Shown here: in pieces, positions 2,405 to 26,413 of the stretch
How positions within the stretch are numbered: position 1 is the stretch's first letter
Layout: the number at the start of each line of letters is the position of its first letter
Source of the DNA: an uncultured Pelagibacteraceae bacterium
GTDB lineage: Bacteria; Pseudomonadota; Alphaproteobacteria; Pelagibacterales; Pelagibacteraceae
DNA length: 54,981 nt
Reading direction: 5' to 3'
NCBI GenBank assembly: GCA_902607585.1
Contig: CACLKP010000003.1
Coordinates: forward strand, 1 to 54,981
The notes under the pieces: model-generated
Databases searched by the model: none
The model's input: the letters and a program-made list of their open reading frames with translations, nothing else
Told to the model about the DNA's origin: nothing
Position numbers and translations under genes: made by a program

Positions 2405-4105
2405 TTAGTCATTTTTTATAATTTCTAATAATTCCCCATCTGAAAAAATATTTTTAAATTTTTTATAAACTTCACCTTTTTTTTCTTGATGAAGAAATTC
2501 TTTTTTTTTTATATCTTGAAGTTTTGAAAAGGTTTCTTGACCCTTTTCTTTTGATAAAGTTATAACCCATCTATTTCCTGTCCATTCAAGTAACTTTTCA
2601 GACAAATTGCGAACAAAATTTTTATCAAGATTTTGGTTAAAGCTTATATCTATTTTCCCTTGAGAAAATTTAATTAAATTTACATTCTTTTCTAAATCAT
2701 ATTTTAACTGAATTTCTTTTTTCCTTGACGATAAATAAATTAAATCTTCAAAAGATAAAACTTTTTCCATTGTTGCTTTTGTTACTAAATTTTTTGGTTT
2801 TAAAGATGATAATACTGGTTTTGTTTGGGTTGTATTTTTAATTTGGTCTTTAGAAATTGTTGTTATTTGGCTTTCATCATTTATAATTTTTTTATTATTT
2901 TCAGGTTCAATTATTTTATTATTATTTTCTTCCATTTGTTTTAAATTATTTTTTTTTAAGGAATCTAATACTTTTTCATAAGAAGGCATGTCTTTTAAAT
3001 GTACCAATCTAACTATTAACATTTCTAAAGATAAAATCGGATTAGAAACTACTGATAATTCTTCTAATACTTTTAATATAAGTTGCCAAAAAATTATTAG
3101 AGTAGATATGTTTATATTATTTGAAATTGAATCAATAGTTTTCAGCTCCGACTCGGATATCGATAAATCTGAATCAAAATTCCCGATGTTTTTTTTTTGT
3201 TGTATAAAATATATTATTTCTAAGAGTTCATTTAGAAAATTAGTTGGCTCAATACCCTGATTTATCATCTCTCTTAATAATTCTATAGATTTTTTTTGTT
3301 CACCTTGAAAAATAAAATTTAATAAATTTAAAATTTTTGATCTGTCTGCAATTCCTAGCATTTTCCTTACAAAAATTTCATCAATTTCTTTTCCTTCGCT
3401 ATTTTGGCTAACAAGCGCCCTATCTAAAAGTGATAATGAATCTCTTACAGATCCTTCAGCTGCTTTTGCAATTAATATTAATGCTTTTTCAGATACTCCT
3501 CCATTTTCTATTTCCAAAATTTTCTTAAGATTTTCCAACAAATCTTTTGTGGAAACTCTATGCAAATCAAACCTCTGACATCTTGAAACAATAGTTACAG
3601 GTACTTTTTTTACTTCGGTAGTTGCAAATATAAATTTTAAATGTGGGGGAGGTTCTTCTAAAGTTTTTAATAGTCCATTAAATGCTTGTTTTGATAACAT
3701 ATGAACTTCGTCTAAAATTATTATTTTATATTTTGCACTTGTAGGATTGTATTTTGAGGACTCTATCAACTCTCTTATGTCATCTATTCCAGTTCTTGAC
3801 GCCGCATCCATTTCTAATACATCTAGATGTTTTGAATTGCTGATTTCTTCGCAGTGACAGTATTCGCCTTGATTGCATTTTTCCCCCTGAATAAAATTCT
3901 TATTACAATTTATCGCTTTAGCAATTAAACGTGCCGTAGTTGTCTTACCAATACCTCGAATTCCGGTTAGTAAATATGCATTTGGTAATTTATTTAATTT
4001 GATTGAATTGGTTATGGTTTCAACCATTATATCTTGACCAATTAATTCTTTAAAATTCTTTGGTCTATATTTTAGTGCTAAAATTTTGTATGCAGCATTT
4101 CCCAT
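2405..4105 (-). CDS. dnaX: DNA polymerase III subunit gamma/tau
   Basis: LALKYRPKNFKELIGQD, TGIRGIGKTTTARLIAKAINC Walker A, ILDEVHMLSKQAFNGLLKTLEEPP, FATTEVKKVPVTIVSRCQRFD. Confidence 0.96.
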   Translation of the reverse strand: MGNAAYKILALKYRPKNFKELIGQDIMVETITNSIKLNKLPNAYLLTGIRGIGKTTTARLIAKAINCNKNFIQGEKCNQGEYCHCEEISNSKHLDVLEMDAASRTGIDDIRELIESSKYNPTSAKYKIIILDEVHMLSKQAFNGLLKTLEEPPPHLKFIFATTEVKKVPVTIVSRCQRFDLHRVSTKDLLENLKKILEIENGGVSEKALILIAKAAEGSVRDSLSLLDRALVSQNSEGKEIDEIFVRKMLGIADRSKILNLLNFIFQGEQKKSIELLREMINQGIEPTNFLNELLEIIYFIQQKKNIGNFDSDLSISESELKTIDSISNNINISTLIIFWQLILKVLEELSVVSNPILSLEMLIVRLVHLKDMPSYEKVLDSLKKNNLKQMEENNNKIIEPENNKKIINDESQITTISKDQIKNTTQTKPVLSSLKPKNLVTKATMEKVLSFEDLIYLSSRKKEIQLKYDLEKNVNLIKFSQGKIDISFNQNLDKNFVRNLSEKLLEWTGNRWVITLSKEKGQETFSKLQDIKKKEFLHQEKKGEVYKKFKNIFSDGELLEIIKND

Positions 4106-4116
4106 ATTTTATACAA

Positions 4117-4210
4117 GGAGACTGAACAACAACCTGAAGCTTGTAATTAAGTCTGCTCGCGTTAGCGCCTGAACTGATTGTGTTACAAACTCCACCCGTT
4201 GTCAGCCTCC
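4117..4210 (-). ncRNA. ffs: Candidate bacterial small SRP RNA (4.5S-like)
   Basis: Non-coding gap upstream of dnaX. On the minus strand GGAGGCTGACAAC pairs with terminal GTTGTTCAGTCTCC. The apex reads CAGG-CGC-UAAC-GCG-AGCAG, matching the SRP domain IV pattern (CAGG / AGCAG internal loop) with a UAAC tetraloop. Confidence 0.75.
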
Positions 4211-4216
4211 AATTTT

Positions 4217-4246
4217 ATTATATCAGTATCAAAATAAGAACTACAA
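4217..4246 (-). promoter_or_regulatory. Putative sigma70 promoter for the SRP RNA candidate
   Basis: Minus strand TTGTAG - 18 nt - TATAAT, about 6 nt upstream of the predicted RNA 5' end. Confidence 0.6.
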
Positions 4247-4262
4247 TATCCGTGTAGGTTGT

Positions 4263-5111
4263 TTATTTTTTTTTAGATCTAAACAAATGAGCTTCATAAA
4301 CCCCTAAAATATCCAATTTTTCTGTATGAAATCCTAATTCTTCAAGTGATTTTTGCAAAGATAAATCCTCTATATGACCTTCTATATCAATATAAAAATT
4401 CACTTGGTCAAATGTATTTTTGACTGAAAAACTTTCTAATTTGCATAAATTTACTCCGTTTGTTGCAAAACCACCCAATGCTTTATAAAGGGCTGCTGGA
4501 ATACTTTTAAGTTTAAAAATACAACTTGTAATATATTTTTTATCAGTAAACTCTGGATGTTTTGAATCTTTTCCCATAATAAAAAATCTAGTAACGTTAC
4601 CTGATTCGTCTTCTATATTCGATTTTAGTATTTCCAAATTATAAATTTTTGCAGCAAGTTCTGAGGCTATGGCTCCTTCACTTTTGTCTTTATTTTCAGA
4701 AATAAATTTTGCAGACCCCGCGGTGTCTGCTGAAATTACAGATATTAATTTGTTATCAGAAATAAATTTTTGTGCCTGGCCCAAGGCCTGCGCATGGGAT
4801 CTTACAGTTTTTATATCTTTCATTTTTGAGCCTTTAATCCCAAGTAAATTGTGTTTAACTTTTTGAAAATGTTCTGCATGGATTTGAAGCTTATACTTTG
4901 GTATCAAATAATGTATATCCGCTACCCTTCCAGCTAGAGAATTTTCTATTGGTATAACAATCTTATATTCTGAGTTATCTCTTGCTAATTGGAAAGCTTC
5001 TTCAAAGGTCGCGCATGCTGTCGCTTCAACATTTGGAAAAACTTCTAAACAGGCCAAATGAGAATAGGCACCCTTTTCTCCTTGAAAGGCTATTTTTACT
5101 TTTTCTTTCAT
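4263..5111 (-). CDS. pheA: Prephenate dehydratase
   Basis: IAFQGEKGAYSHLAC, VIPIENSLAGRV, SADTAGSAKFI, GNVTRFF, C-terminal ACT domain. Confidence 0.95.
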   Translation of the reverse strand: MKEKVKIAFQGEKGAYSHLACLEVFPNVEATACATFEEAFQLARDNSEYKIVIPIENSLAGRVADIHYLIPKYKLQIHAEHFQKVKHNLLGIKGSKMKDIKTVRSHAQALGQAQKFISDNKLISVISADTAGSAKFISENKDKSEGAIASELAAKIYNLEILKSNIEDESGNVTRFFIMGKDSKHPEFTDKKYITSCIFKLKSIPAALYKALGGFATNGVNLCKLESFSVKNTFDQVNFYIDIEGHIEDLSLQKSLEELGFHTEKLDILGVYEAHLFRSKKK

Positions 5112-11718: not shown

Positions 11719-12693
11719 ATGAACAAAGATTTACAAATAGCAAAAAAAACAGTTCAAACGGAAATTAATGCGTTAAAAAAGTTATCTCGAAGTTATAATA
11801 GTTCATCCCAATTTTCGAAAGCTGTTAGTTTAGTCTCTAAAACTCGTGGCAAGGTATTAGTAGTTGGAGTTGGAAAAAGCTATATAGTAGGAATCAAAGT
11901 TAGCGCTACATTATCAAGTCTTGGTACTCCAAGTGTAGCTTTTAATGCTACTGACCTACAACATGGAGGTCTTGGTGCTATTCAAAAAAAACATGACGTT
12001 TTGTTAGTATTTAGTGTTTCCGGAGAATCTTCAGAATTAAATCACATATTAAGATATGCTAATAGACATAATATTTATGTTATTGGTGTCAGTTGTAGGG
12101 CATCATCAATGCTACTTCGTAATTCTAATATCAAAATATTACTTCCTAAAGTTGTTGAAGCTGGTCATAGCCTAGCTCCAACATCATCTTCTTTAAATTT
12201 TCTTAGTTGGGGAGATTCTCTTGCAATCGCTTGCATGAAGAGAAAAAAATGGACAAATAAAAAATTTATTACAACTCATCCATCTGGAACATTAGCTACA
12301 TCTTTAATCCTAGTAAAAGAAATCATGGCAAAAAAGAAAGAAATTCCATTAATCTCTTCAGACAAAACTATGCGAGCTGCTATAGCAGAAATGTCTAAAA
12401 AAAGATTAGGAGTAGTTTGTTGTAGAGAAAAAAGCGGAAAAATTAATATTTTGACTGATGGTGATTTGCGTAGGCATTCAAATAATTTGTATAAAAAAAC
12501 AATTTTAAAGGTCTCTAGTAAAAATCCAACTTGGATTGCAGATACAGCTACAGCTCTCTCAGCAATTGAAAAAATGAACTCTCAAAAAATAACTTCACTA
12601 TTAGTTGCACATAATCAAGATATAAATAAAAAGATTAAAAAAGTTATTGGTATACTGCATTTACATCATTGTCTGAGCCGGGGCATTAAATGA
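11719..12693 (+). CDS. kdsD: KpsF/GutQ (arabinose-5-phosphate isomerase)-family SIS + CBS protein
   Basis: SIS domain (VVGVGKSYIVGIK, SVSGESSE, LAPTSSS, THPSGTLA) and two CBS repeats; next to lptC/lptB. SIS motifs are divergent. Confidence 0.8.
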   Translation: MNKDLQIAKKTVQTEINALKKLSRSYNSSSQFSKAVSLVSKTRGKVLVVGVGKSYIVGIKVSATLSSLGTPSVAFNATDLQHGGLGAIQKKHDVLLVFSVSGESSELNHILRYANRHNIYVIGVSCRASSMLLRNSNIKILLPKVVEAGHSLAPTSSSLNFLSWGDSLAIACMKRKKWTNKKFITTHPSGTLATSLILVKEIMAKKKEIPLISSDKTMRAAIAEMSKKRLGVVCCREKSGKINILTDGDLRRHSNNLYKKTILKVSSKNPTWIADTATALSAIEKMNSQKITSLLVAHNQDINKKIKKVIGILHLHHCLSRGIK

Positions 12694-13277
12694 AAAAAAA
12701 ACAACAAAACATTCAAATAATTCTCATATCAATTGGACTTCTGTTAATCCTTATTACGTATTTCTACTATCCTTATATGAAGAGAGCTCAACTTATTGAA
12801 AATCAATCTGCTAAGAAAGGTTTGGAAAGTACCCTTGAAGATCAAAGTACTTCCTTCGAAAATGTGCAATATAAGGGACTGTATGATGTAGATAAACCAT
12901 TTACAATAACGTCTGAAGAAGCTTACATACTAGATGAAGAACCTGAGTTTGTTTATATGACTAATGTACATACAATTTTGTATTTATCCGATGGAAGAAT
13001 AGTAAATATCAAGGCAGATAAAGGCAAATATAATAAAGTAACATACGATTGTTTTTTAAAGCAAAATGTTAAAGCTACTGATGGAGAAACAAAAATCTTT
13101 GCGGAAAATTTAGACTTATTAGCAACCATAAGTTCTGTAAAAATTTATAAAAATGTCACTTTAAATTATCCAGCAGGTTCTCTTGTAGCAGATAAAATGG
13201 ATTATGATTTTGAAACAAAATATTTTAAAGTTTCAATGTTTGAAGACAAATCTGTAAAAATAAAAGTAACTAAATGA
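12690..13277 (+). CDS. lptC: LptC/OstA-like LPS export protein
   Basis: Single N-terminal TM then beta-rich repeats; genomic context between kdsD and lptB. Confidence 0.7.
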   Translation: MKKKQQNIQIILISIGLLLILITYFYYPYMKRAQLIENQSAKKGLESTLEDQSTSFENVQYKGLYDVDKPFTITSEEAYILDEEPEFVYMTNVHTILYLSDGRIVNIKADKGKYNKVTYDCFLKQNVKATDGETKIFAENLDLLATISSVKIYKNVTLNYPAGSLVADKMDYDFETKYFKVSMFEDKSVKIKVTK

Positions 13278-14038
13278 GCAACATAAAAAAATTTAGGATC
13301 ATAAAATTTAAATCTAAACCTGTATTTACTGCTAAAAATATATCTAAATCTTTTGGTGAAAGAGTTATATTAAGAAAAATTGATATTCATTTAAATAAAG
13401 GAGAAATGTTGGGTTTGTTAGGTAGCAATGGTGCTGGCAAAAGTACTTTTATGAATATTGTTTTGGGACTATTAAAATCTGATTTTGGAGACATATTTTT
13501 GGGTAACACAAAATTAACACCACTGCCTATCCACCAAAGATCAAAATTGGGAATTGCATATTTGCCTCAGCAAACCTCAATTTTTAGAGGACTTACTGTT
13601 TATGAAAATTTATTAGGAATTGCACAAATTGTAAAAAAAAGCACTATTGATCAAAAAGATGTAGTTGAAAAATTAATGGCTGAATTTTCAATTACACATT
13701 TAAGGGATATTAAGGCAACAGCATTATCTGGAGGAGAACGACGACGAGCTGAAATAGCTCGATGTTTAATAAATAATCCCAAAGTCTTATTATTAGACGA
13801 ACCTTTTGCGGGCGTAGATCTTCTTTCAATACATGATATCAAAGGTTTACTTTTGAAGCTACAGGCTAGAGGCTGCGCTGTATTAGTAACAGACCATAAT
13901 GCTTCACAACTTCTTTCCGTTGTGGATCGAGCCTATGTACTTGCAAATGGAAGTATAGTTGCAAATGGCACACCTCGCCAGATTATAAATACTACCGAAG
14001 CAAAAAAATTATACTTTGGTGAAGATTTTACCATCTAG
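13274..14038 (+). CDS. lptB: LptB-like LPS export ABC transporter ATPase
   Basis: LLGSNGAGKST Walker A, ALSGGERRRAEIARCL signature, VLLLDEPFAGVD Walker B. Confidence 0.88.
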   Translation: MSNIKKFRIIKFKSKPVFTAKNISKSFGERVILRKIDIHLNKGEMLGLLGSNGAGKSTFMNIVLGLLKSDFGDIFLGNTKLTPLPIHQRSKLGIAYLPQQTSIFRGLTVYENLLGIAQIVKKSTIDQKDVVEKLMAEFSITHLRDIKATALSGGERRRAEIARCLINNPKVLLLDEPFAGVDLLSIHDIKGLLLKLQARGCAVLVTDHNASQLLSVVDRAYVLANGSIVANGTPRQIINTTEAKKLYFGEDFTI

Positions 14039-14044
14039 CATATA

Positions 14045-15394
14045 ATGCAAAAAAAAAAATCTGTTTCAATAAATGGTAAAATTGAAAAATTTGACAAAAA
14101 TATCACTGTTGAAAGTGATAAAAGTATATCACACAGATCATTATTAATCGCAAGTCAATGTATAGGTCTCTCAAATATAAAAAATATTTTAGAAAGTGAT
14201 GATATAAGAAATACAATAATTTGCTTAAAAAAACTTGGGGTAAAAATATTAAAAAAAAATAGAAAATATATAGTTTATGGAAATGGATTGGGATCATTTA
14301 AAAAACCAAAAAATAATTTTCTCTATGCTGGAAATTCAGGAACTCTAGCTAGAATGCTCTTTCCTCTGTTGGGAACACAGTCAAATATTAAAGTTAAGAT
14401 TGCTGGAGATAATAGTTTGAATAAAAGAGACATGAAAAGAATTATCGATCCTCTATCAAAAATTGGTTGTAATTTTTACCCTAAAAATAAAACAACTCTT
14501 CCTTTAACAATTGAAGGAACAGATATGCCTCTGGCACAAAAACATTTCGAAAAAATTGGTTCAGCTCAGGTAAAATCTGCTATTTTGCTTGCGGGGCTTA
14601 ATACTCCTGGAATTACTCAGATTGAAGTAAAAAAAAATTCTAGAAACCACACTGAAAACTTATTAAAAGCAATAAAAGCTGACATAAAAATAAAAAAACT
14701 ACTAAAAAGTCATTTAATTTCTTTAAGAGGGCAAAAAAATTTATTTGGATTTAATCTGAAAATTCCTGGAGACTTATCTTCTGCAGCTCCTTTTATTATT
14801 CTAACTTTATTAACACCTAATTCAAAATTATTGATTAAAAACGTCAGTTGTAACAAAACTAGAATAGGGTTTGTTAATATTTTAAAAAAAATGAATGCAA
14901 ATATAGAAATTAAAAATTTAAAAAAAATATCAGGTGAATCTGTAGGTAATATTATTATTAAAAGCAGTTTACTTAGATCAATAAAATGTCCAAAAGATTT
15001 GGTCCCATTTACTATCGATGAATTTCCTCTTTTATTCATCGCAGCTTCCATTGTAAAGGGTATATCAAAATTTAATGGAATTAACGAACTACGACATAAA
15101 GAATCTGATAGAATTAAAAGTATTGAAATCGGTTTAAATCAAATTGGAATAAAAACTAAATCTACTAAAGATAGCTTAACAATATTTGGTAACCCTAATA
15201 TACAAATTAAAAAGACATTAAAAATTAATCCTAAAGAGGATCATCGAATTGCAATAGCTTTTTTTTGTTTAGGTCAATTATTAAAAGGAAGAGTTGAGAT
15301 TAAGAATTTTCAAACTGTTAATACATCTTTTCCCAAATTTTTATACACCATGAAAAAAATCGGAGCAAATTTTGAAGTTAAAAAAAAAAATTAA
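14045..15394 (+). CDS. aroA: 3-phosphoshikimate 1-carboxyvinyltransferase (EPSP synthase) family
   Basis: DKSISHRS, AGNSGTLARML, SAQVKSAILLAGL, IDEFPLLFIAAS, ELRHKESDR, DHRIAIAF; upstream of cmk-rpsA. Confidence 0.9.
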   Translation: MQKKKSVSINGKIEKFDKNITVESDKSISHRSLLIASQCIGLSNIKNILESDDIRNTIICLKKLGVKILKKNRKYIVYGNGLGSFKKPKNNFLYAGNSGTLARMLFPLLGTQSNIKVKIAGDNSLNKRDMKRIIDPLSKIGCNFYPKNKTTLPLTIEGTDMPLAQKHFEKIGSAQVKSAILLAGLNTPGITQIEVKKNSRNHTENLLKAIKADIKIKKLLKSHLISLRGQKNLFGFNLKIPGDLSSAAPFIILTLLTPNSKLLIKNVSCNKTRIGFVNILKKMNANIEIKNLKKISGESVGNIIIKSSLLRSIKCPKDLVPFTIDEFPLLFIAASIVKGISKFNGINELRHKESDRIKSIEIGLNQIGIKTKSTKDSLTIFGNPNIQIKKTLKINPKEDHRIAIAFFCLGQLLKGRVEIKNFQTVNTSFPKFLYTMKKIGANFEVKKKN

Positions 15395-16046
15395 ATTATT
15401 AGTTGCTTGTGACGGTAGAGCTGCTTCCGGTAAAACGACTGCAGCAAAACTAATAAGTAAAAAATATCACTTGCATTTTCTTTCGTCAGGATTACTTTAT
15501 AGATACATTAGTTATAAATTACTCTTAAAAAATAAATTATTGAATAAGAATATATATATTAAAAAAATTATAAAAAAAATTACTTTAAACAAACTAAAAA
15601 ACAAAAATCTCTTTAAAGAAAATGTGACGCGATACGCAGCTGAAATTGCTAAATCAAAAAAAATAAGAAAGCTACTAGGAAAATACCAAAAAAAATTTTC
15701 AAAACAAAATCATGTTTGTATTGAAGGGCGAGATATTGGCAATGTAATATGCCCAAATGCAGATGTTAAAATTTTTTTCAAATGTAATCTTAGGGTTAGA
15801 ACTAAAAGAAGATGGAAAGAATATAAAAAAAATAATTTAACGTTAACTTTAAGAGAAGTAAAAAAAGCCTTAAAAACAAGAGATTATTCAGATATCAATC
15901 GCAAACACAGTCCTTTACGTGTACCAAAAGATTCGATAGTAATTGACACCTCGAAATTAAGTAAAAAACAAACGTTAGGCAAAATTTCGAATATAATAGA
16001 GAAGAAATTATTATTAAAATATGGAAGAAATTATAAAGCAAAATAA
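15372..16046 (+). CDS. cmk: Cytidylate kinase
   Basis: DGRAASGKTTAAKLI P-loop, SSGLLYRYISY, IEGRDIGNVICPNADVKIFF, TRDYSDINRKHSPL. Confidence 0.9.
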   Translation: MKLKKKIKLLVACDGRAASGKTTAAKLISKKYHLHFLSSGLLYRYISYKLLLKNKLLNKNIYIKKIIKKITLNKLKNKNLFKENVTRYAAEIAKSKKIRKLLGKYQKKFSKQNHVCIEGRDIGNVICPNADVKIFFKCNLRVRTKRRWKEYKKNNLTLTLREVKKALKTRDYSDINRKHSPLRVPKDSIVIDTSKLSKKQTLGKISNIIEKKLLLKYGRNYKAK

Positions 16047-17730
16047 AAGCAAATCTCACCAAGAATTTGAGAAACTCCTGTCCGAAGATCTTGGAAATAG
16101 AAAATTTAAAGAGGGTGAAATAACAACTGGTACTATAGAAGAAATCGGAAAAAAATTTGTTTTTATTGATTTGGGACTTAAAAGTTCTGGAGCAATACCA
16201 ATTGAAGAATTTAAACTTACCAAAGAAATAGATAACATCGAAGTTGGATCAAAAATTGATGTTCTTTTAGAAAAAATAGAAAACAAAAATGGAGAGATTG
16301 TTGTAAGTCGAGAAAAAGCTAAAAGAACAAAGTCATGGAAAAAAATGGAAAAAGCTTTTGAAAATAAAGAAGAGGTCAAAGGTGTTATTATTTCGAGATG
16401 TAAGGGAGGATTTGTTGTTAATGTTGATTCATGTCTTTGTTTTCTACCTGCATCTCAACTAGATATGAGACCTTTAAAAAATTTTGACCATCTAATGAGA
16501 GTGCCTCAAACCTTTGAATGTGTAAAACTAGATAAAAAAAGGGGGAATATAGTTTTATCTAGACGCGCCGTTATAGAGAAAATTAGAAACAAAGATAAAA
16601 ACAAAATTATATCAAAATTAAAGGAAGGAGACGTAGTTCAGGGTATTGTAAAAAACCTTACGGATTGGGGAGTGTTCATTGATTTAAATGGTGTGGACGC
16701 CTTGCTGCACATTACGGACATCTCCTGGAGTAGAATTAATAAACCATCAGAATTGCTTTCGCTTGGTCAATCAATAAAAGTAAAAATTATCAAAATTGAA
16801 CCTGTAAAATTAAAAATTAGTGTAAGTATAAAACACCTTACCGAAGATCCTTACACGAAAATAATAAATAAATATAAAATAGGAGAAAAATATTCAGCAA
16901 TCGTAACAAAAGTTCAAGATTACGGTTGCTTCGCAAAGTTAGAAGAAGGTTTAGAGGGATTAATTCATCAATCTGAATTATCTTGGACTAAAAAAAATAT
17001 CCACCCAGGAAAGATATTATCAACATCTCAAAAAATTGAAGTGGAACTTTTAGAAAAAGATACTGAAAAAAGAAGACTTTCCTTAAGTTACAAAAATACA
17101 TTAGTTAATCCTTGGAATAAATTTACTAAAGATCATAAAGTAGGAGATAAGTTTGAGGGATTAATAAAAAATATAACTGACTATGGATTGTTCGTATCGA
17201 TTAAAGACACAGAGCTTGATGGATTAATTCATTATAAAGATTTAAGCTGGTCTGAAAAAGAATCCGAATTAGAAAAATATAAAAAAAATCAAGCAATTAA
17301 ATTTAAAATCTTGGAAATAAATCGAGAAAATGAAAAAATAAGACTTGGAATAAAACAGCTTAACGACGATCCTTTTGATTTTTTTGTTAATAAAAATTTA
17401 TCCGACATAGTAACAGTAGCCGTGCACAGTTCAACGCAAAATGGAATTTATGTTAATGTTGGAAAGAAAAATTTATCGATTTTAATCAAAAAAAGTCAAT
17501 TAGCAAAAGAACCTGAAAACCAGCGACCATCAAGATTCGTTAGAGGGGATAAATTGGATGCTATAATTACAGAACTAGATAAAGAAAAGAGAAAAGTTTC
17601 ACTTTCCATTAAAGCTTTAGAAGAAAAACAAACAAAAGAAGCTGTAAAAAAATATGGATCCAAGGATTCAGGTGGAGTGCTTGGCGACATATTTAATTTT
17701 TCAAGTTTAAAAAAAAAAACTAAAAAATAA
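16021..17730 (+). CDS. rpsA: 30S ribosomal protein S1
   Basis: Multiple S1 domains (VVQGIVKNLTDWGVFIDLNGVDALLHITDISW, etc.); C-terminal KYGSKDSGGVLGDIF. Confidence 0.93.
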   Translation: MEEIIKQNKSKSHQEFEKLLSEDLGNRKFKEGEITTGTIEEIGKKFVFIDLGLKSSGAIPIEEFKLTKEIDNIEVGSKIDVLLEKIENKNGEIVVSREKAKRTKSWKKMEKAFENKEEVKGVIISRCKGGFVVNVDSCLCFLPASQLDMRPLKNFDHLMRVPQTFECVKLDKKRGNIVLSRRAVIEKIRNKDKNKIISKLKEGDVVQGIVKNLTDWGVFIDLNGVDALLHITDISWSRINKPSELLSLGQSIKVKIIKIEPVKLKISVSIKHLTEDPYTKIINKYKIGEKYSAIVTKVQDYGCFAKLEEGLEGLIHQSELSWTKKNIHPGKILSTSQKIEVELLEKDTEKRRLSLSYKNTLVNPWNKFTKDHKVGDKFEGLIKNITDYGLFVSIKDTELDGLIHYKDLSWSEKESELEKYKKNQAIKFKILEINRENEKIRLGIKQLNDDPFDFFVNKNLSDIVTVAVHSSTQNGIYVNVGKKNLSILIKKSQLAKEPENQRPSRFVRGDKLDAIITELDKEKRKVSLSIKALEEKQTKEAVKKYGSKDSGGVLGDIFNFSSLKKKTKK

Positions 17731-17752
17731 GAAATAGCTATATAATAAATTT

Positions 17753-18064
17753 ATGGTTAAATCTGAATTGTTGCAAAAGTTGTGCAACCATTATCCCAAT
17801 CTTCTTCGTAAAGATATAGAAAAAATTTTAGAAATTATTTTTCTTGAAATGATAGAGGCTCTTTGTAGAGAAGAAAATATAGAAATTAGAGGTTTTGGAA
17901 TTTTTAAAATAGTGCTAAGAAAAGCCAGAATGGGCAGAAACCCAAAAAGTTCAGAATTAGTTAAAATAGCTGAAAAAAAAGCAATTCGATGGAAAATGAG
18001 TAAAGCCCTTTTTGGCAGATTAAACAAAAATTTTACTGAGAACAAAATATCTGATACTTATTAA
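17753..18064 (+). CDS. ihfB: Integration host factor beta / HU-family DNA-binding protein
   Basis: MVKSELLQKL...EIRGFGIFKIVLRKARMGRNPKSSE; follows rpsA. Confidence 0.88.
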   Translation: MVKSELLQKLCNHYPNLLRKDIEKILEIIFLEMIEALCREENIEIRGFGIFKIVLRKARMGRNPKSSELVKIAEKKAIRWKMSKALFGRLNKNFTENKISDTY

Positions 18065-18081
18065 AATATAATTAAAAATCA

Positions 18082-18759
18082 GTGAATAAAATTATTCTTG
18101 CACTAGACAACATAGTTTTAGATGAAGCCCTTTCGATTTCCAATCAAGTTAAAGATAAACTTCTCACCGTAAAGGTTGGATTAGAACTTTATAATTTAGC
18201 TCACAAAACAGGAATTAAAAAATTTAACGACATTGGTCTCAACAATCTCATGCTTGATCTGAAACTCCAAGACATTCCAAACACAATATATCGTTCAATT
18301 TTGGCATTAAAAGGAATTAAATTTGAATACCTTACAGTGATGGCGCTTGGAGGTAATGAAATGATAAAACAAGCAAAGAAAGCTACAAATGAAATAGATC
18401 CAAACATAAAAGTTTTAGCCGTGACTATACTGACGAGCCTAAAAAATGAATTGCCTGAGTTAGGATTTAATTCTTCCGTTGAAGATACTGTGGTTCAACT
18501 TGCAAAAAACTCTAGTGAAGCAGATGGCTATGTGTGTTCTGCATTAGAAGCAAAATTATTAAGAGAAAAAGTTTCGAAAAATAAATTAATATTTTGTCCA
18601 GGAATTAGAATGCCAGGCGATTCCAAAAATGATCAAGTTCGGTCGGCATCGCCTGCCCTTGCATTACAAAATGGAGCGGATGCATGCATTATGGGAAGAT
18701 CTCTACTTCAAGGAGATATTAGTAAAAACTTAGAAAAAGTTTTAAACTCCATCAAATAA
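18082..18759 (+). CDS. pyrF: Orotidine 5'-phosphate decarboxylase
   Basis: ILALDN, KVGLELY, LDLKLQDIPNTI, VTILTSL, PGIRMPGD..DQVR; GTG start. Confidence 0.88.
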   Translation: MNKIILALDNIVLDEALSISNQVKDKLLTVKVGLELYNLAHKTGIKKFNDIGLNNLMLDLKLQDIPNTIYRSILALKGIKFEYLTVMALGGNEMIKQAKKATNEIDPNIKVLAVTILTSLKNELPELGFNSSVEDTVVQLAKNSSEADGYVCSALEAKLLREKVSKNKLIFCPGIRMPGDSKNDQVRSASPALALQNGADACIMGRSLLQGDISKNLEKVLNSIK

Positions 18760-18762
18760 TCA

Positions 18763-19386
18763 ATGCTTCTTGCTAAAATTTGTGGTCTCACCGAAACTAT
18801 TCATATTGAGAAATGTATAGAGTATGGCGCAAGTATGTGCGGATTTATATTATTTTACCCAAAAAGTCATAGAAATTTATGTCTTGATAAAGCTAAAGAG
18901 TTGACTTCTTTGAAACATTCAAAATCTAACGTTGCGGTTATGGTTCAGCCTAATAAATCTCAGTTAGAGAGTATTAAAAATTTAAATTTTCAATACTATC
19001 AAATTTATGGCGATCAAGATCCGGATGAAATTAATAAGATTAAAAAAAGATATGGCGTTAAAATAATTAAAGCACTTACTATAGAAACTGAGGAGAACGT
19101 ATTGAAATATAAAAAATACCAAGATATTTCGAACGTTATTCTCTTTGATTCAATTGGCAAGGAGAAATCATTATCTTTTGACCACTCCTTATTAAAAGAT
19201 GTATCAAAAAATGTAATAAAAATGATTGCCGGAAATATTCAAATTCAAGATCTTGAAAAAATAAGCAAAATAGCAGATATTGTGGACGTAAGTGGCGCGG
19301 TTGAAACCGAGAAGAAAAAAGATTTAACTAAAATCAAAGAATTTTTATTAAAAATAAAAGAAATAAATGAAAATAGAACCCTTTAA
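18763..19386 (+). CDS. trpF: Phosphoribosylanthranilate isomerase-family protein (divergent)
   Basis: AKICGLT, GFILFYPKSHRN, ILFDS, VDVSGAVE; locus order trpF-trpB-trpA. Confidence 0.8.
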   Translation: MLLAKICGLTETIHIEKCIEYGASMCGFILFYPKSHRNLCLDKAKELTSLKHSKSNVAVMVQPNKSQLESIKNLNFQYYQIYGDQDPDEINKIKKRYGVKIIKALTIETEENVLKYKKYQDISNVILFDSIGKEKSLSFDHSLLKDVSKNVIKMIAGNIQIQDLEKISKIADIVDVSGAVETEKKKDLTKIKEFLLKIKEINENRTL

Positions 19387-20611
19387 AGAAATTAATCCTC
19401 CAGATAAAAACGGATACTGGACTAACAAAAAAACTGGAGAAACATATGGAGGAACCTGGATCAGTCCTCTTTTGATTCCTAACCTTAGAAAAGTAGAAAA
19501 ATGTTTTGAAAAAGCCCTAAAGGATAAAAAATTTTTAAATGGCCTTGAAGAAAAATTACTTACATTTATAGGAATTAATACCCCTATCCTTTACAGCAAA
19601 GAGCTAACCGATATAGCTGGAGGTGAAAGGAAAGTTGGAAGAATTTATCTGAAGCGTACAGATCTCCACCACGACAGCAGTCACAAACCTGTGTCAAGTT
19701 TTTCCAGTTGCTATATGGCTAAACATATCTTTAAGGCCAAAAAAATAATCTGTGAAACTGGAGCTTCAATGCATTCGCGTTCCGTGGCATCCGCATGTGC
19801 GCTCTTAAAGATGGATTGTGAAGTTCACATCGGGGCGGTAGACGCAGAAAAAGTTTCTCTAAACAAGGATATTTCTGAATTATATGGAGCCAAAATAGTA
19901 GTGGTGCAAGACTCAACAAAAACATTATTGCCTGCTATGGCTTCTGCTCTTCGTAGCTGGCAAAGTAATCCTGATGCGATGTATGTAGTGGGTTCCGTAG
20001 CGGGCCCAGCGCCATACCCCAGGATGGTTAGAACATGGGCAAGTATAATTGGAAGAATAGCTAAAAAACAATTTAAACAAATTACTGGAGGTGTACCTTC
20101 TACCCTTTTCGCTGTGTGTGGCGGTGGGAGCAACTTAATGTCCCAGGCATATCCCCTGCTCAAAGATAAAACTGAAATATTTGCGGTAGAAAGTGCTGGC
20201 GAAGGAATTGAAACCGGAAGACACGGAGCCACAATTTTAGGAGGTGGTAAAATGGGAATTCTACTTGGTTTCAAATCTAAAGTAGTTATGCATTCTTCTC
20301 AGATTGCTGAGAGCTTGACAGAAGCAAGTGGACTGGACTTCGCGGCGGTGGGACCGGAAGTAGCCTACTTGCACGATATTGGAAGAATTAAATTTCGTTC
20401 AGCAACAGACTTGGAGGCAAAAAAAACATTCCTATTATGCGCTGAGCAACTTGGAATAATTCCTGCTATTGAGGCTTGCTACGTGATAAATGCCGCATTA
20501 AAAGAAATAAAAAAGAGAAAAAATCCAAAGGAAAATCATTTAATTCACCTGTGTGGATCGGGCGAAAGCAATGTTGCAAGAATGATAAAATTTAAAAGAG
20601 AAAATGAATAA
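19367..20611 (+). CDS. trpB: Tryptophan synthase beta-like PLP enzyme (divergent)
   Basis: IYLKRTDLHHDSSHK (PLP Lys retained), CETGASMHS, GSVAGPAPYPRMVR, CGGGSNLM, GIETGRHGA, SGLDFAAVGPE; adjacent trpA. Confidence 0.8.
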   Translation: MKIEPFKEINPPDKNGYWTNKKTGETYGGTWISPLLIPNLRKVEKCFEKALKDKKFLNGLEEKLLTFIGINTPILYSKELTDIAGGERKVGRIYLKRTDLHHDSSHKPVSSFSSCYMAKHIFKAKKIICETGASMHSRSVASACALLKMDCEVHIGAVDAEKVSLNKDISELYGAKIVVVQDSTKTLLPAMASALRSWQSNPDAMYVVGSVAGPAPYPRMVRTWASIIGRIAKKQFKQITGGVPSTLFAVCGGGSNLMSQAYPLLKDKTEIFAVESAGEGIETGRHGATILGGGKMGILLGFKSKVVMHSSQIAESLTEASGLDFAAVGPEVAYLHDIGRIKFRSATDLEAKKTFLLCAEQLGIIPAIEACYVINAALKEIKKRKNPKENHLIHLCGSGESNVARMIKFKRENE

Positions 20612-21428
20612 AAACTTTAAAAAAATATTTGCTAAGGCCAAACAAGAAAAAAGAGGTTGCTTAATAGGCTTTGTGACAGGTATGGATCCTGATTATGAAA
20701 CTTCTAAGAAAATATTGATTGAAATGTCCAAGTATTGTGATGCTGTCGAGGTGGGCAATCCATTCAATACAAGTACGTCAGATTCTGCAACAATAATGGA
20801 TGCCAACATGAGAGCAATAAAATCAGGTGCAGACACTGGAAAAATTTTCAAACTTATAAAAGAGGTAAAATCTGAGATTCAAAATAATATACCGTTTCTT
20901 ATTATGGGCTATATGAACCCCGTGTATATCTATTCTATAAAAAAATTTGCAAAAAGCTGCAAAGAGTCCATGGTTGATGGATGCATAATTGTTGATAGTG
21001 ATAATAATGCACCTGAGGATAAAGAAATTTTTGAAGAGCTTTCGAAAATAGATGTGGCTTATATAAAATTAATAGGCCCAACTAACGACGAAAGTTATAT
21101 AAAGCAGACTCTAAAAAAGTGCAGTTCGTTTTGTTACGTTTTTTCTTACGCTGGGCTAACTGGGGCTAAACAAGTAAATTTAGATAATGTAAAAAAATCT
21201 GCAAAATTAATTAGAAAAAATTCAAAAATTCCAATTGGCGTTGGCTTTGGTATACGTTCAAGATCCGATGTTTCTAAAGTAGTACAAGTTAGTGATGCAG
21301 CTATAGTTGGTTCTGGAATCGTTGAAATTATTGAAAAAGGTGTTAAAAATAAAATATCTGGTCTTGATTTGGCCATTAACGTGGGGCAATATTTAAAAGA
21401 GTTAAGAGAAGGATTATTAAAAAAATGA
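20604..21428 (+). CDS. trpA: Tryptophan synthase alpha-like protein (divergent)
   Basis: CLIGFVTGMDPDYETS, AVEVGNPF (Glu retained), IMGYMNPVYIY, SYAGLTGA, VGFGIRSRSDV, AIVGSGIVEII. Confidence 0.82.
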   Translation: MNKNFKKIFAKAKQEKRGCLIGFVTGMDPDYETSKKILIEMSKYCDAVEVGNPFNTSTSDSATIMDANMRAIKSGADTGKIFKLIKEVKSEIQNNIPFLIMGYMNPVYIYSIKKFAKSCKESMVDGCIIVDSDNNAPEDKEIFEELSKIDVAYIKLIGPTNDESYIKQTLKKCSSFCYVFSYAGLTGAKQVNLDNVKKSAKLIRKNSKIPIGVGFGIRSRSDVSKVVQVSDAAIVGSGIVEIIEKGVKNKISGLDLAINVGQYLKELREGLLKK

Positions 21429-22390
21429 ATTGGATTTCAAACTTTAAAAAAATTGGAATAAAGGTAAAACAAATCTTAAAAAAACAACCTACAGGGCAAG
21501 AAGAAACTGATTGGAAAAATTGTCCTCAATGTAAAAAAATTTCTTATCTTCCTGATTTAATTGCAAACTCATACATATGCGAATGTAGTTTTCATTTTGA
21601 TCTGCCTCCAAAACTACGTTTGGACTCTTTGTTTGATTCGAGTTATGAAATTATCGAAGCTCCGGACAACGATCCAGACCCATTGAATTTTGAAGTCACA
21701 GATGGCACAAGAAAAGGATATAAGTATATAGATAAAATAAAAAAATATAGACAGGTTACTGGGCAAAAAACTGCATTGCTTAGTGCTTATGGAAAAATTT
21801 CTGATCTGAATGCTGTTGTAGTTTGTTTTAACCCTAAGTTTGGAGCTGGCAGAATGGGTCCCTTGGAAGCGCAGTATTTTTATGAAAGTGCAGAATTTGC
21901 GATTAAAAATAAGGTTGATATCTGGGTAGTTGTCTATCAAAGCTCTGGGATAGACGTCCACTCAGGTGTGGCGGGTTTGACTTCGGGAATGGTTAAGACT
22001 GTAATTGCAATGAACGAAATTAAAAAAGCGGGAATTCCGACTTTTGCTGTAGCAGCAAGGGCAGTAGCTGGTGGAACTTATGCTTCAAATTTTTTTATGC
22101 ACGATTTTATTTTTATTGAAGCCAAGTGCGTAGAGAACATGCTTTTTTCTGGGAAAAAAGTTACAGCAAACATCCTTAAAAGTTCTGATGCAATCCCAGA
22201 GGACTTTGGCCGCGCAGATGGAGTTATGAAATCAGGGTTGGCTGATATTACTCTTGAAAGTAGAAAAGATTTAAAACACTATATAACCAAATTAGCAAAA
22301 ATAATTTTAAAAAAAGAACAGTCAAAAAATGTAGAAGAAGTTCATGAAAATCCAGAAGATTTTAAAAAGACTGCTTCAACTGCATCCTAA
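21425..22390 (+). CDS. accD: Acetyl-CoA carboxylase carboxyltransferase beta-like protein (divergent)
   Basis: MNWISNF start, CPQC...CEC zinc-ribbon remnant, crotonase/CT fold segments; syntenic between trpA and folC. Confidence 0.8.
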   Translation: MNWISNFKKIGIKVKQILKKQPTGQEETDWKNCPQCKKISYLPDLIANSYICECSFHFDLPPKLRLDSLFDSSYEIIEAPDNDPDPLNFEVTDGTRKGYKYIDKIKKYRQVTGQKTALLSAYGKISDLNAVVVCFNPKFGAGRMGPLEAQYFYESAEFAIKNKVDIWVVVYQSSGIDVHSGVAGLTSGMVKTVIAMNEIKKAGIPTFAVAARAVAGGTYASNFFMHDFIFIEAKCVENMLFSGKKVTANILKSSDAIPEDFGRADGVMKSGLADITLESRKDLKHYITKLAKIILKKEQSKNVEEVHENPEDFKKTASTAS

Positions 22391-23624
22391 GAGTGAACCC
22401 AGTACACTTAATCGTATTAAAAGATTATTAAAAGATCTTAAAAATCCAGAAAATAAAATCAGCAACTTAATACAAGTGGTGGGAACGAATTCTAAGCACT
22501 CTCTAATAGTTTCGATAAGAGAGATTTTTGAAACAGCTGGCTATACGTGTAATGTAAACATTAGCCCCTCTTTACGAAAATTTAATGAAAGATATTATTT
22601 TTCTGGAAAATATATTTCGGATGAGGATTTATACGACTTGCTCATAGAAGTTGAGCGGGTAAATAATAATAAAAGCATATCCTTTCATGAAATCATAACC
22701 GCGGCCTGGATATTACATGCTTCTCGCAAAGAAGCAGAAGTGAATATAATGGAAGCTGGCGCTTTATTCCGTCTAGATTCATCTAATGTTTTTAAAAAAA
22801 ATATTTGCTCTGTGGTTATGCCGATAGGTATTGACCATCTCGATTTTTTAAAAAAAGGAACTATAGATGAAATAGTCTACGAAAAATGTTCACATTTATT
22901 AAGTGATTCTAAAATCTTTGTTTCGGAACAAAAAAATAGTGTATTAGAAGAAATAAAAAAAAATATTGCCAATAATTCTTCTAAAAAATTTATCTTAGGT
23001 GAAGATTATAAGTATAAAAAAGATAATAATGGACTTATTTATGAAGATAAGTTGGGCAAGTTAAATTTACCTCTCCCCAACCTATTAGGTGATTTCCAAC
23101 TCGGCACGGTTACGACTGCGATTGCTGTTGCAAGAAATCTTAATCAATTTAAAATAAGTGAGTATCATATTAAGGAATCCATAATCAACATAAAATCTGA
23201 AGCAAGATTACAGAATATTACTCATGGAAAACTTAGAAAATATGTCTCTGAACGCAATCAAATTATACTGGATGGAGCGCATAACCCACTAGCTTTTTTA
23301 GCGATAAAAAAATATTTAGAAACCTTAAATAAGGAAAGGAAAGTATTTTTGGTACTTGCAATGATGTCAACAAAACAACATAAAGAATGTATTCAAATCC
23401 TTAAAGAAAAAATACATTCAATAACTACCCTAGACATTCCAAATCAAACAAAGTTTATTAAAAAAGAAGAATTATCAAAAATTGCTCAGTCTTGTGGTAT
23501 ACCTTCAAAAACAGAAAATTCCATTGAGGAAGCTTTTAAAAATATTGCTTCGGAAAACGATAATGCAATTATTCTATGTATTGGAAGTTTATATTTTGCT
23601 GCAGAGATATTAAATTTAAACTAA
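22344..23624 (+). CDS. folC: Folylpolyglutamate/dihydrofolate synthase-like Mur ligase family protein (divergent)
   Basis: LHPKSEPSTLNRIKRLL, VGTNSKHS (altered P-loop), GIDHLDFL, ILDGAHNPLA; syntenic with accD/trxA. Confidence 0.8.
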   Translation: MKIQKILKRLLQLHPKSEPSTLNRIKRLLKDLKNPENKISNLIQVVGTNSKHSLIVSIREIFETAGYTCNVNISPSLRKFNERYYFSGKYISDEDLYDLLIEVERVNNNKSISFHEIITAAWILHASRKEAEVNIMEAGALFRLDSSNVFKKNICSVVMPIGIDHLDFLKKGTIDEIVYEKCSHLLSDSKIFVSEQKNSVLEEIKKNIANNSSKKFILGEDYKYKKDNNGLIYEDKLGKLNLPLPNLLGDFQLGTVTTAIAVARNLNQFKISEYHIKESIINIKSEARLQNITHGKLRKYVSERNQIILDGAHNPLAFLAIKKYLETLNKERKVFLVLAMMSTKQHKECIQILKEKIHSITTLDIPNQTKFIKKEELSKIAQSCGIPSKTENSIEEAFKNIASENDNAIILCIGSLYFAAEILNLN

Positions 23625-23944
23625 ATATTCGAATTAATAAACTCTTGAACGTTCGATTTATTCGTTGCTCCGACCTTAGTATTTTTGACTTCACCGTTTT
23701 TATCAAACAAAATAATTGTGGGAACGCCACGGATACCAAACAAAGTTGGTGTTGAAGGTGAGCTGTCTATGTCCATATAAAAAAAATTTAATTTGTCTGA
23801 CATTTCATTTGAAATTTCTTCTATTATCGGCTTTAGTGTCCTGCATGGCGAACACCAGCTAGCAGAAAATTGAACCAAAGAATTTTTTCCAGATTCCTTT
23901 ACTAATTTTTTAAAGTTTTCATCGGTTAAATTTTGAAGTGCCAT
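23621..23944 (-). CDS. trxA: Thioredoxin
   Basis: FSASWCSPCRTLKPIIEEI, DIDSSPSTPTLFGIRGVPTIILF. Confidence 0.9.
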   Translation of the reverse strand: MALQNLTDENFKKLVKESGKNSLVQFSASWCSPCRTLKPIIEEISNEMSDKLNFFYMDIDSSPSTPTLFGIRGVPTIILFDKNGEVKNTKVGATNKSNVQEFINSNI

Positions 23945-24056
23945 AATAAGTTGAATTTAGTAATTTTTTTTAAAATGTCAATTAGACAATATGGTTTCTT
24001 ATTTTATATGAGCCTAATTTTGTTAATGTATTGACTAGTTTTATCTGTGAGCATTT

Positions 24057-24626
24057 CTAGCCTATTTTTTTTAATTTTCTGCTTATCATTTCTTCGCTTT
24101 TATTTTTAAGAACACTTATAACTAATTTCCGATTACATTTTACACCCATCTTTTCATAAACTTTTTTTGCGATTAACGTTTTGGTAAGACCATGTTCTTC
24201 TCGATATTGCCCTAGTTTTTCTTTTCGCTCCGTCTCAGTTTTAACTTTATCATTTAAATGTTTTGGTAGTTTGTCAACATCCGTTCCATTGTTAAAAATT
24301 TCGTTTATTAAAACTTTTTTCTTTTTAAGTATTTCTTTGCCATTAAAAGAATTATTACTATTATTCATTTTTTTTAGGATACTTTCCATTTTAGACTTTG
24401 TTGGTGGGTAAAAATAATGCGGGTTAGAACCAAACTGCATTCCTTTAGGTCTTTTTACTACGACAAATCTTATTTCATTGTTTTTAGCAAATCTGGTAAT
24501 ATTATCACCTTCGCTTCTAATTTTAATTTTATTACGACCTAAATAAGCAATTAAATCAGAACCATTTAACGTCCCTGAAGGCGCTTCTTCATAATCCCAG
24601 AGTAGTTCATGTTCTTTTTTTACCAT
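24057..24626 (-). CDS. Hypothetical protein, charged; possible C-terminal helix-turn-helix
   Basis: Intact 189 aa ORF in a same-strand run; YREEHGLTKTLIAKKVYEKMGVKCNRKLVISVLK resembles an HTH (weak). Confidence 0.6.
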   Translation of the reverse strand: MVKKEHELLWDYEEAPSGTLNGSDLIAYLGRNKIKIRSEGDNITRFAKNNEIRFVVVKRPKGMQFGSNPHYFYPPTKSKMESILKKMNNSNNSFNGKEILKKKKVLINEIFNNGTDVDKLPKHLNDKVKTETERKEKLGQYREEHGLTKTLIAKKVYEKMGVKCNRKLVISVLKNKSEEMISRKLKKIG

Positions 24627-24643
24627 GCTGCGTCCTATCTCTT

Positions 24644-24973
24644 TTACAGTTTATCAATTTTTCTCCCATAAAAAAAACTACTTTTTTTATTTAATTTTAA
24701 AGTCTCAATCTCATTTTTAAGAATCTCCATTTCTTTAATCGCCTTTTTATAATAATAATTTCTCTGAATTTTATCAAAAAATTTTAATATGTTTATTGGA
24801 AGGAAATAAAAAAAAATTATCATATAAAAAACTGGTTTTTCCCTAAATAGTTCAACTTCAACTCTTTTTCCAATTTCTATACAGTTTCTATATGTTTCTG
24901 CATTTCTTGCCCAATCTCTTAGATATGCTAATCTTTTATTCAAATAATCTTTATAGTAATATTTTTCTAGCAT
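24644..24973 (-). CDS. Hypothetical protein with one hydrophobic (probable TM) segment
   Basis: 109 aa, VFYMIIFFYFLPINILKFF; between the ExoI gene and the 189-aa gene. Confidence 0.55.
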   Translation of the reverse strand: MLEKYYYKDYLNKRLAYLRDWARNAETYRNCIEIGKRVEVELFREKPVFYMIIFFYFLPINILKFFDKIQRNYYYKKAIKEMEILKNEIETLKLNKKSSFFYGRKIDKL

Positions 24974-24979
24974 CTTTTT

Positions 24980-26413
24980 TTACGAGGCTTTTTCATAAAT
25001 TTTTCTTTGTTGATGTAAGTACTCATCTATTGCGTTTATATATTCAAGCTTTTCTTTGGAAATATTTTTTTCATTTCGCATATCATCACAAAGTTTTTCA
25101 CTCATTGGGATAGTTTGAAATCTATTCTCATCTACAGATAATATTTTTTTTGCAATATCTTCATGAATTGCTTTATATTCTTTTTTTAACAGTGCATCAG
25201 GTTGATTTTGGTAAATTAATCTTTTACCCAAATAATGAAATCTTTCATCATCAAATTGATCAACTATTTTATTTCTTTCAACCCAATCTGATGTTGTATG
25301 AAATGCTTCCATTTTCTTTTGGTCTTCTGGTTTTGCAAACCCACCTGCATAAAGTTGATTTTCAACTAAATTTTTTTCAGGTTTGTCAGCTGATTTTTCC
25401 TTTTTTTCCATCGCTAATTCACCTAAAATTTCACCCACATTTTTTCCGAATTCTTTGTGGGAGTGAATTAAGTTTGCCCGTTCTTTAATTTTTTCCCAAC
25501 CTAAAGCTTTATAATCCTCTCTTTCCATTCCGTAAGCATAATGAAGACAAACACTATTTTTATTTGATGGGAAAGGTCTACAGAATTTTCCAGGTTTTTT
25601 CAGAATTTCTTTTAGTGCATTTCTCGATAGATTTATTAAAGGCTTTGGATCATTCTCAAGCGCAAAAACTATTGGCCATTTATATTCACTATGAGTAGCA
25701 AATGCAGTGCAAATTGTAGGTCGCGATCTTCCATACCAATAAAAAACTGCAGTAAAGATTTTATTTTCTTCCAATGTTTTATTGGTTAATTCCTTGGTAG
25801 TTGTTTTTAAAATGGAATTATATATAGGATTTGCATTTTTTTGCATTTTTTTTAAAATCTCCCAAACCACCTTGCAGTCCCCTATACTTGTATGGAGCGA
25901 ATTTTTGTCTAAATTACTAATATTGCTCTCGGCTAGATCAGTAAGCTTGAAAGAAAAATTTCCTTTTTCATTTTTTTTAGCCTCAAAACTGTTCTGGTAA
26001 AACATCTTGCTTGCTCTCGCAAAAGGTAAAAAGTCAGCAGCCATGTTTTGATTTGTTTTTAAAACATAGACTGGAAGTAAAGAACGGTAATTTTCCTTTT
26101 CAATAAAAGGGAAGTCAAATGAGTGTCCATTCCAAGTTCCCCATACACAAGGAGACCATTTTTTTACTATTGCATGAAAATTGTACATCATTTCTAGGTG
26201 TGAGCTGTTCGCTTTCTGCATTTGATGAAATCCCTTATTCACCCACATGCTGTATGGATCTGGAATATGACCTGGTTTGTTACGACAGAAAAAATTAAAC
26301 TCATCTAATTTTTCAAGTTCTGGTGAAAGTAAAATTCCTCCAATCGAAAATATCACTCCTGTACTTGTAGATGAATTTATACTTTCAGTATCTATTAAAG
26401 CTATGTTTTGCAT
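24980..26413 (-). CDS. Exodeoxyribonuclease I (SbcB)-like DEDDh exonuclease
   Basis: IALIDTES (Exo I), WGTWNGHSFDFPFI (Exo II), SFKLTDLAESN...LHTSIGD (Exo III); C-terminal ENQLYAGGFAKPEDQKKMEAF...DDERFHYLGKRLIYQNQP matches the ExoI C-terminal domain. Confidence 0.8.
   Translation of the reverse strand: MQNIALIDTESINSSTSTGVIFSIGGILLSPELEKLDEFNFFCRNKPGHIPDPYSMWVNKGFHQMQKANSSHLEMMYNFHAIVKKWSPCVWGTWNGHSFDFPFIEKENYRSLLPVYVLKTNQNMAADFLPFARASKMFYQNSFEAKKNEKGNFSFKLTDLAESNISNLDKNSLHTSIGDCKVVWEILKKMQKNANPIYNSILKTTTKELTNKTLEENKIFTAVFYWYGRSRPTICTAFATHSEYKWPIVFALENDPKPLINLSRNALKEILKKPGKFCRPFPSNKNSVCLHYAYGMEREDYKALGWEKIKERANLIHSHKEFGKNVGEILGELAMEKKEKSADKPEKNLVENQLYAGGFAKPEDQKKMEAFHTTSDWVERNKIVDQFDDERFHYLGKRLIYQNQPDALLKKEYKAIHEDIAKKILSVDENRFQTIPMSEKLCDDMRNEKNISKEKLEYINAIDEYLHQQRKIYEKAS

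Follow-up and report, generated by a model that had tools for sequence, protein, structure and literature searches.

The window analysed here, a stretch of 54,981 nucleotides that forms contig 3 in a genome of 724 kb (55% complete) from genus g1 of the Pelagibacterales (SAR11), carries a trpB gene of a divergent type, designated class D, whose product is, judging from sequence comparison, probably a working tryptophan synthase beta subunit paired with a divergent TrpA, the trpBA pair having replaced the pair of the host in place. The gene lies on the forward strand (19367..20611), with its ATG at 19367, its stop at 20611, 414 codons (414 aa) and no internal stops when frame and length were checked, and the coordinates, frame and intact length given in the preliminary description were all correct on re-reading. 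TrpB structures in the PDB were matched over the full length (E 6e-77, residues 26-407), and the product scored 310.6 bits against the NCBIfam equivalog model TIGR00263 (cut-off 392) and 108.5 bits against the TrpB2 model TIGR01415 (cut-off 519), below the cut-off in both cases. The TIGR00263 cut-off is no test of function in SAR11, since 298 of the 397 sampled Pelagibacterales genomes also contain no TrpB above it.

Residues are numbered after Salmonella TrpB, with the numbering confirmed at ten known positions. The PLP-lysine segment, all features being on the forward strand, reads KRTDLHHDSSHKPV (19652..19693, Lys107 corresponding to K87), the carboxylate loop reads ETGASMHS in place of the canonical ETGAGQHG (19754..19777, with E130 at E109 and M135 at Q114), and the C-terminal motif reads LCGSGESN in place of LSGRGDKD (20549..20572; S377C, R379S, D381E, K382S and D383N), so that neither the GAGQHG loop nor the GRGDKD motif is present in the alignment; the PLP-phosphate loop GGGSN (20120..20134) and Asp324 (20336..20338), equivalent to D305 of the GLDF motif, are as in canonical enzymes. 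Further changes are G113S, Q114M, G116S, R141K, R148I, K167L and H313V, the last within the segment GPEVAYL, and the retained positions are K87, E109, T110-A112, N145, G232-N236, D305 and E350 (E369 in the window protein). Every substitution listed in the preliminary description was thus found, its rewritten substrate-carboxylate loop was confirmed, and its statement that the PLP lysine, catalytic glutamate, GGGSN and GLDF aspartate are intact agreed with the alignment; its view that fold family and PLP machinery have been preserved was likewise supported. S377C is unremarkable, with Cys occupying this position in most canonical alphaproteobacterial TrpBs, and H115/G116 vary inside class D, being either HS or NA. 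Among 119 columns that do not vary across 33 canonical TrpBs, class D retains 65, is variable at 23, and has switched at 31 to a different residue that is itself invariant within the class. The changes are not focused in the COMM domain, with about 50% of columns changed there vs 44% elsewhere by hand count, and the rewritten loop therefore belongs to a divergence that spans the whole protein. Sequencing error was ruled out, the class-specific residues recurring in at least ten other SAR11 assemblies.

The trpB model found matches in 383 of the 397 Pelagibacterales genomes, some of them merely weak matches to other PLP enzymes, with the curated cut-off exceeded in only 99, and the window TrpB protein matched 363. 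By residue tables and the tree, SAR11 TrpBs, which share one conserved locus, divide into four deeply separated classes. Class A has the canonical ETGAGQHG and occurs in only three SAR11 genomes, in another family; class B, in 12 sampled genomes, has ESGAGQH[FY], ESGAGAHF or ETGAGAHL and carries Q, T or N in place of D305; class C, with DTGAG[YM]xG, E109D and N236S, is by far the commonest and was seen in every other g1 genome read; and class D, with ETGASMHS or ETGASMNA, was observed in 6 of the 363 TrpB-bearing genomes and in further single-cell genomes. The class B loci are L083-L090, L012 and L043, of which the g3 and g4 members have D60E in their TrpA, and in the single-contig genome G105 a class B TrpB ranks first among the TrpB1 matches, with no other strong one found. 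The window TrpB does not show the class C signature (the DTGAG[YM]xG loop with GGGSS) and falls in a clade of its own (support 100). Those class D relatives that bear names are single-cell genomes of Pelagibacteraceae, and two of them, G243 and G383, belong to the same family as the host. The roughly twelve known class D sequences form a single, long-stemmed clade (support 100), whose root position is unsure owing to long branches; in the tree it falls tentatively on the TrpB1 side vs TrpB2, with an uncertain base that is flagged for long-branch effects. A non-canonical loop is thus usual in SAR11, nearly all of whose genomes have another non-canonical TrpB as their only TrpB1, and with regard to the question raised in the preliminary description of whether the residues are common in the clade, this much holds for the loop in general but not for the exact class D residues, which are rare.

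Class D resembles canonical TrpB1 (TIGR00263) in being homologous over its whole length (about 37-41% identity in alphaproteobacteria) and in its PLP lysine, Glu109, GGGSN, D305 and E350, its adjacent trpA and its operon slot, but differs in that ETGAGQHG, R141, R148, K167, R379, K382 and D383 are altered. With class C it shares the SAR11 order, the syntenic locus, the usual status of sole TrpB1 and a non-canonical sequence, whereas the two are 28-31% identical on separate deep branches, and E109 and N236, retained in class D, are replaced in class C (E109D, N236S), which mostly also shows R379D. TrpB2 (TIGR01415/COG1350) has the same PLP fold and HKP at the PLP lysine, but its frames in SAR11 span 454-493 aa and have a different C-terminal motif. 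Outside SAR11, the best match to class D in 385 sampled alphaproteobacterial genomes was a canonical TrpB at 41%. As for a viral carrier, a scan of viral contigs with the class D alignment yielded no relative, a further viral scan aimed at more diverse sequences also came back empty, and the phage TrpBs were ordinary-looking at about 34%. In comparisons within the class, class D genes show omega values of 0.04-0.07 at unsaturated dS of 0.33-0.66 and are under strong purifying selection. A metagenome study of 2008 reported a TrpB1 cluster peculiar to SAR11 and reasoned that the single copy of P. ubique has to be functional (PMC2395257); this Pelagibacter cluster is very probably class C. No report of class D, of its rewired allosteric residues or of the cassette exchange was found in the literature.

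The locus is that of a canonical trp operon, as the preliminary description had stated, with trpB sitting at trpF-B-A. The fixed upstream order aroA-cmk-rpsA-ihfB-pyrF (14045..18759) is followed by trpF of the host-genus type (18763..19386, 81% identical to that of G007), which overlaps trpB and holds the recombination junction in its last codons, by trpA for the class D alpha subunit (20604..21428; 179 bits to TIGR00262, over the cut-off), and by accD of the host-genus type (21425..22390), the downstream limit of the exchanged block, all on the forward strand. The class D TrpA retains the catalytic E49 and D60 and is altered in loop 2 (D56T/P57S), and TrpB class and TrpA type correspond wherever both were read, class D TrpB always being accompanied by its own TrpA type. 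The window trpB and trpA are 82-89% and 74-77% identical to those of class D loci L003-L009, which belong to another genus, vs 28-31% and 31-35% to those of other g1 genomes. For rpsA, ihfB and accD, identities to g1 are 58-86%, 57-78% and mostly 71-79%, respectively, vs 40-47%, 33-51% and 31-37% to the class D genomes of L003-L009. The best trees group rpsA and accD with g1 (support 100 and 99), and the AU test rejects the class D grouping for both (p 4e-58 and 1e-59); the trpB and trpA trees support the class D grouping at 100, and the AU test rejects the g1 grouping (p 2e-5 and 7e-10). These topology tests support the replacement of trpBA alone, with one breakpoint at the very end of trpF. 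The window TrpF ends in KIKEINENRTL, that of G007 in KIKEINELN and those of the class D donors in INENTSL or INENTSF, so the upstream joint falls within the final few codons of trpF, at the trpB overlap; recombination there and before or near the accD start put class D trpBA in the place of the g1 pair. In the tree the window TrpB is nested among sequences of g3 and other Pelagibacteraceae, which makes a transfer into g1 simpler to assume than one out of it.

The formation of mosaic operons by xenologous gene displacement in situ is a known concept, and the exchange is like it in that orthologous genes were replaced within a conserved operon, but unlike it in that a matched alpha/beta pair passed from one genus to another and the joint lies within the final codons of the gene before it. 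The GG[TN]-type loop seen in family f2 is missing from the window TrpF (18763-19386) and from all other family f1 TrpFs read; the KxCG Cys, the KSxR Arg and the Asp are retained. At the locus, trpF is absent from most of genus g1, from the g2 genomes read and from G387 (L140, L141, L144, L146-L152, L160, L175 and L176), and seven g1 genomes had no trpF match anywhere; a bifunctional HisA is possible, and SAR11-like contigs with no trpF were also seen in 2008 (PMC2395257).

In the host, contig 24 carries the end of trpE, at a contig end, followed by trpG, trpD, trpC and lexA, so that with trpF, trpB and trpA of the window all seven tryptophan functions are represented (trpE being truncated), and a search of the 55% complete genome found no second TrpB. 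The class D genome G129, 95% complete, contains trpE, trpD and trpC, with neither TrpB2 nor another TrpB1 found; trpE, trpD and trpC are also present in the class D genomes G327 and G243, and TrpB2 accompanies class D TrpB in G428, G430 and G432. Of 20 genomes with no TrpB match, 18 also had no TrpA, which could be gene loss or an assembly gap. Cultured SAR11 bacteria are tryptophan prototrophs (see also PMC2395257).

In the mechanism favoured here, class D TrpB and the equally divergent TrpA (20604-21428) would assemble an alpha/beta complex and convert indole and serine to L-tryptophan through standard PLP chemistry; class D TrpB retains the residues that bind PLP and those that serve the aminoacrylate and indole steps. 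What has changed would be open/closed control, since R141 has become Lys and replacements affect R379, the Q114-N145-R148 trio and the alphaD56/betaK167 pair. A salt bridge links alphaD56 and betaK167 at the alpha/beta interface, and both partners are lost in class D; the literature puts the two residues close to the indole channel and the interface (PMC8187860). In a review (PMC9512447), hydrogen bonds of Q114-N145-R148 and the R141-D305 bridge are described as stabilising the closed state, and E109 as serving indole activation. In class D the former network is broken on two sides (Q114M, R148I) and a Lys-Asp version of the latter bridge may be kept; loss of Q114 or of the R141-D305 bridge in Salmonella impairs the beta reaction (PMC9512447), which counts against the reading, as do the score below the TIGR00263 cut-off and the TrpB2 of G428, G430 and G432, which could supply tryptophan there. 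A tryptophan synthase with rewired alpha/beta control, rather than a new reaction, is the most economical reading, and the enzyme is probably still a tryptophan synthase, since the cell has the other pathway genes and no second such enzyme was found in it. The exchange would have been tolerated or favoured because both cassettes perform the same job.

The preliminary description had suggested that the protein may not form L-tryptophan, and a PLP enzyme with a new function, performing beta-replacement with another nucleophile or donor while tryptophan comes from another enzyme or from uptake, would account for the 31 canonically invariant positions that now hold other conserved residues, could rely on TrpB2 for tryptophan in G428, G430 and G432, and finds a parallel in the redirection of the fold in an engineered tyrosine synthase among the PDB matches. 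This is nevertheless improbable, as no other TrpB was found in G129 or the host, both of which retain pathway genes (looking for a canonical trpB across the genome, as proposed in that description, revealed none in either, G129 being 95% complete), the catalytic pair of the co-travelling TrpA is intact, and class D fills an operon slot common to the other TrpB classes; the earlier suggestion is left unsupported by the sole TrpB of the host and its remaining pathway genes. An inactive or decaying beta subunit kept only as an activator of TrpA, to which the loss of several closed-state residues might point, is very unlikely given the intact frame, the invariant catalytic residues and the low omega. 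Most improbable of all is a chimeric assembly or contamination of an incomplete, single-cell-like genome: affinity does change abruptly within one operon and the host genome is just 55% complete, but the window TrpB is 70-89% identical to its relatives and identical to none, both joints have natural frames and gene overlaps, and class D occurs in three genera with different flanks.

A further explanation, compatible with the tryptophan synthase reading and no alternative to the claim on function, concerns the origin of the divergence. The kdsD-exoI block (kdsD-lptCB-aroA-cmk-rpsA-ihfB-pyrF-trpFBA-accD-folC-exoI; window 11719-26413) shows near-constant gene order and unusually low inter-genus identity in SAR11, and it is about an even call whether an ordinary tryptophan synthase owes its divergence mainly to hitch-hiking in this hyperdivergent, often recombined block and not to selection on TrpB. 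Between host and g3, identities inside the block (rpsA 40-47%, lptB 40-47%, accD 32-37%, and about 25-50% overall) are lower than for malS (74-78%), argD (62-64%) and lexA (81-84%), and block genes switch allele within a genus, lptB being either 88-90% or 38% identical between g1 genomes and other block genes varying similarly, although this comparison covers few genomes and is a lead rather than a result. Widespread recombination among distant SAR11 members (PMC7542561) also counts in its favour; against it, class D is strongly conserved internally, and hitch-hiking alone leaves the class-specific active-site residues unaccounted for. The position in the block may account for much of the trpBA divergence.

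Other genes of the block also show unusual features. In several SAR11 genomes the cytidylate kinase encoded by cmk has no Walker-A lysine, with SPAAAGAGTQ or near variants instead of GPAGAGKGT (L003 at 4064-4720, L005, L009, G045, G053, G104 and G105; L157, L166, L161 and L162); G105 is a single-contig genome and the other cmk motifs look conserved by eye, and the window cmk (15372-16046) retains GRAASGKT. The window AccD (21425-22390) is highly divergent (121 bits, cut-off 317), reads SSGIDVHS where the g16 relative L011 has SGGARMQE, and has CEC as its second zinc-ribbon cysteine pair. A speculative and rather unlikely proposal is that each gene of this syntenic essential block exists in several deeply diverged alleles, of which some have changed catalytic motifs (the TrpB loops, the cytidylate kinase that lacks its Walker-A lysine), and that these pass between genera as replaceable targets, singly or in pairs, for example in escape from inhibitors, class D trpBA being one such allele.

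That SAR11 has a divergent TrpB1 cluster is already known, having been noticed in 2008. Tryptophan synthase is a model of allostery whose beta-site loop and salt bridges are usually held near-invariant, and SAR11 presents at least three natural rewritings of the beta site beside the canonical one, apparently single-copy, under selection and at one locus, which makes it testable whether the canonical residues are needed for catalysis or for alpha/beta control only. The swap of an intact alpha/beta pair indicates that a metabolic complex can be exchanged between genera as a unit, and in SAR11 a changed motif is no sound predictor of a changed function.
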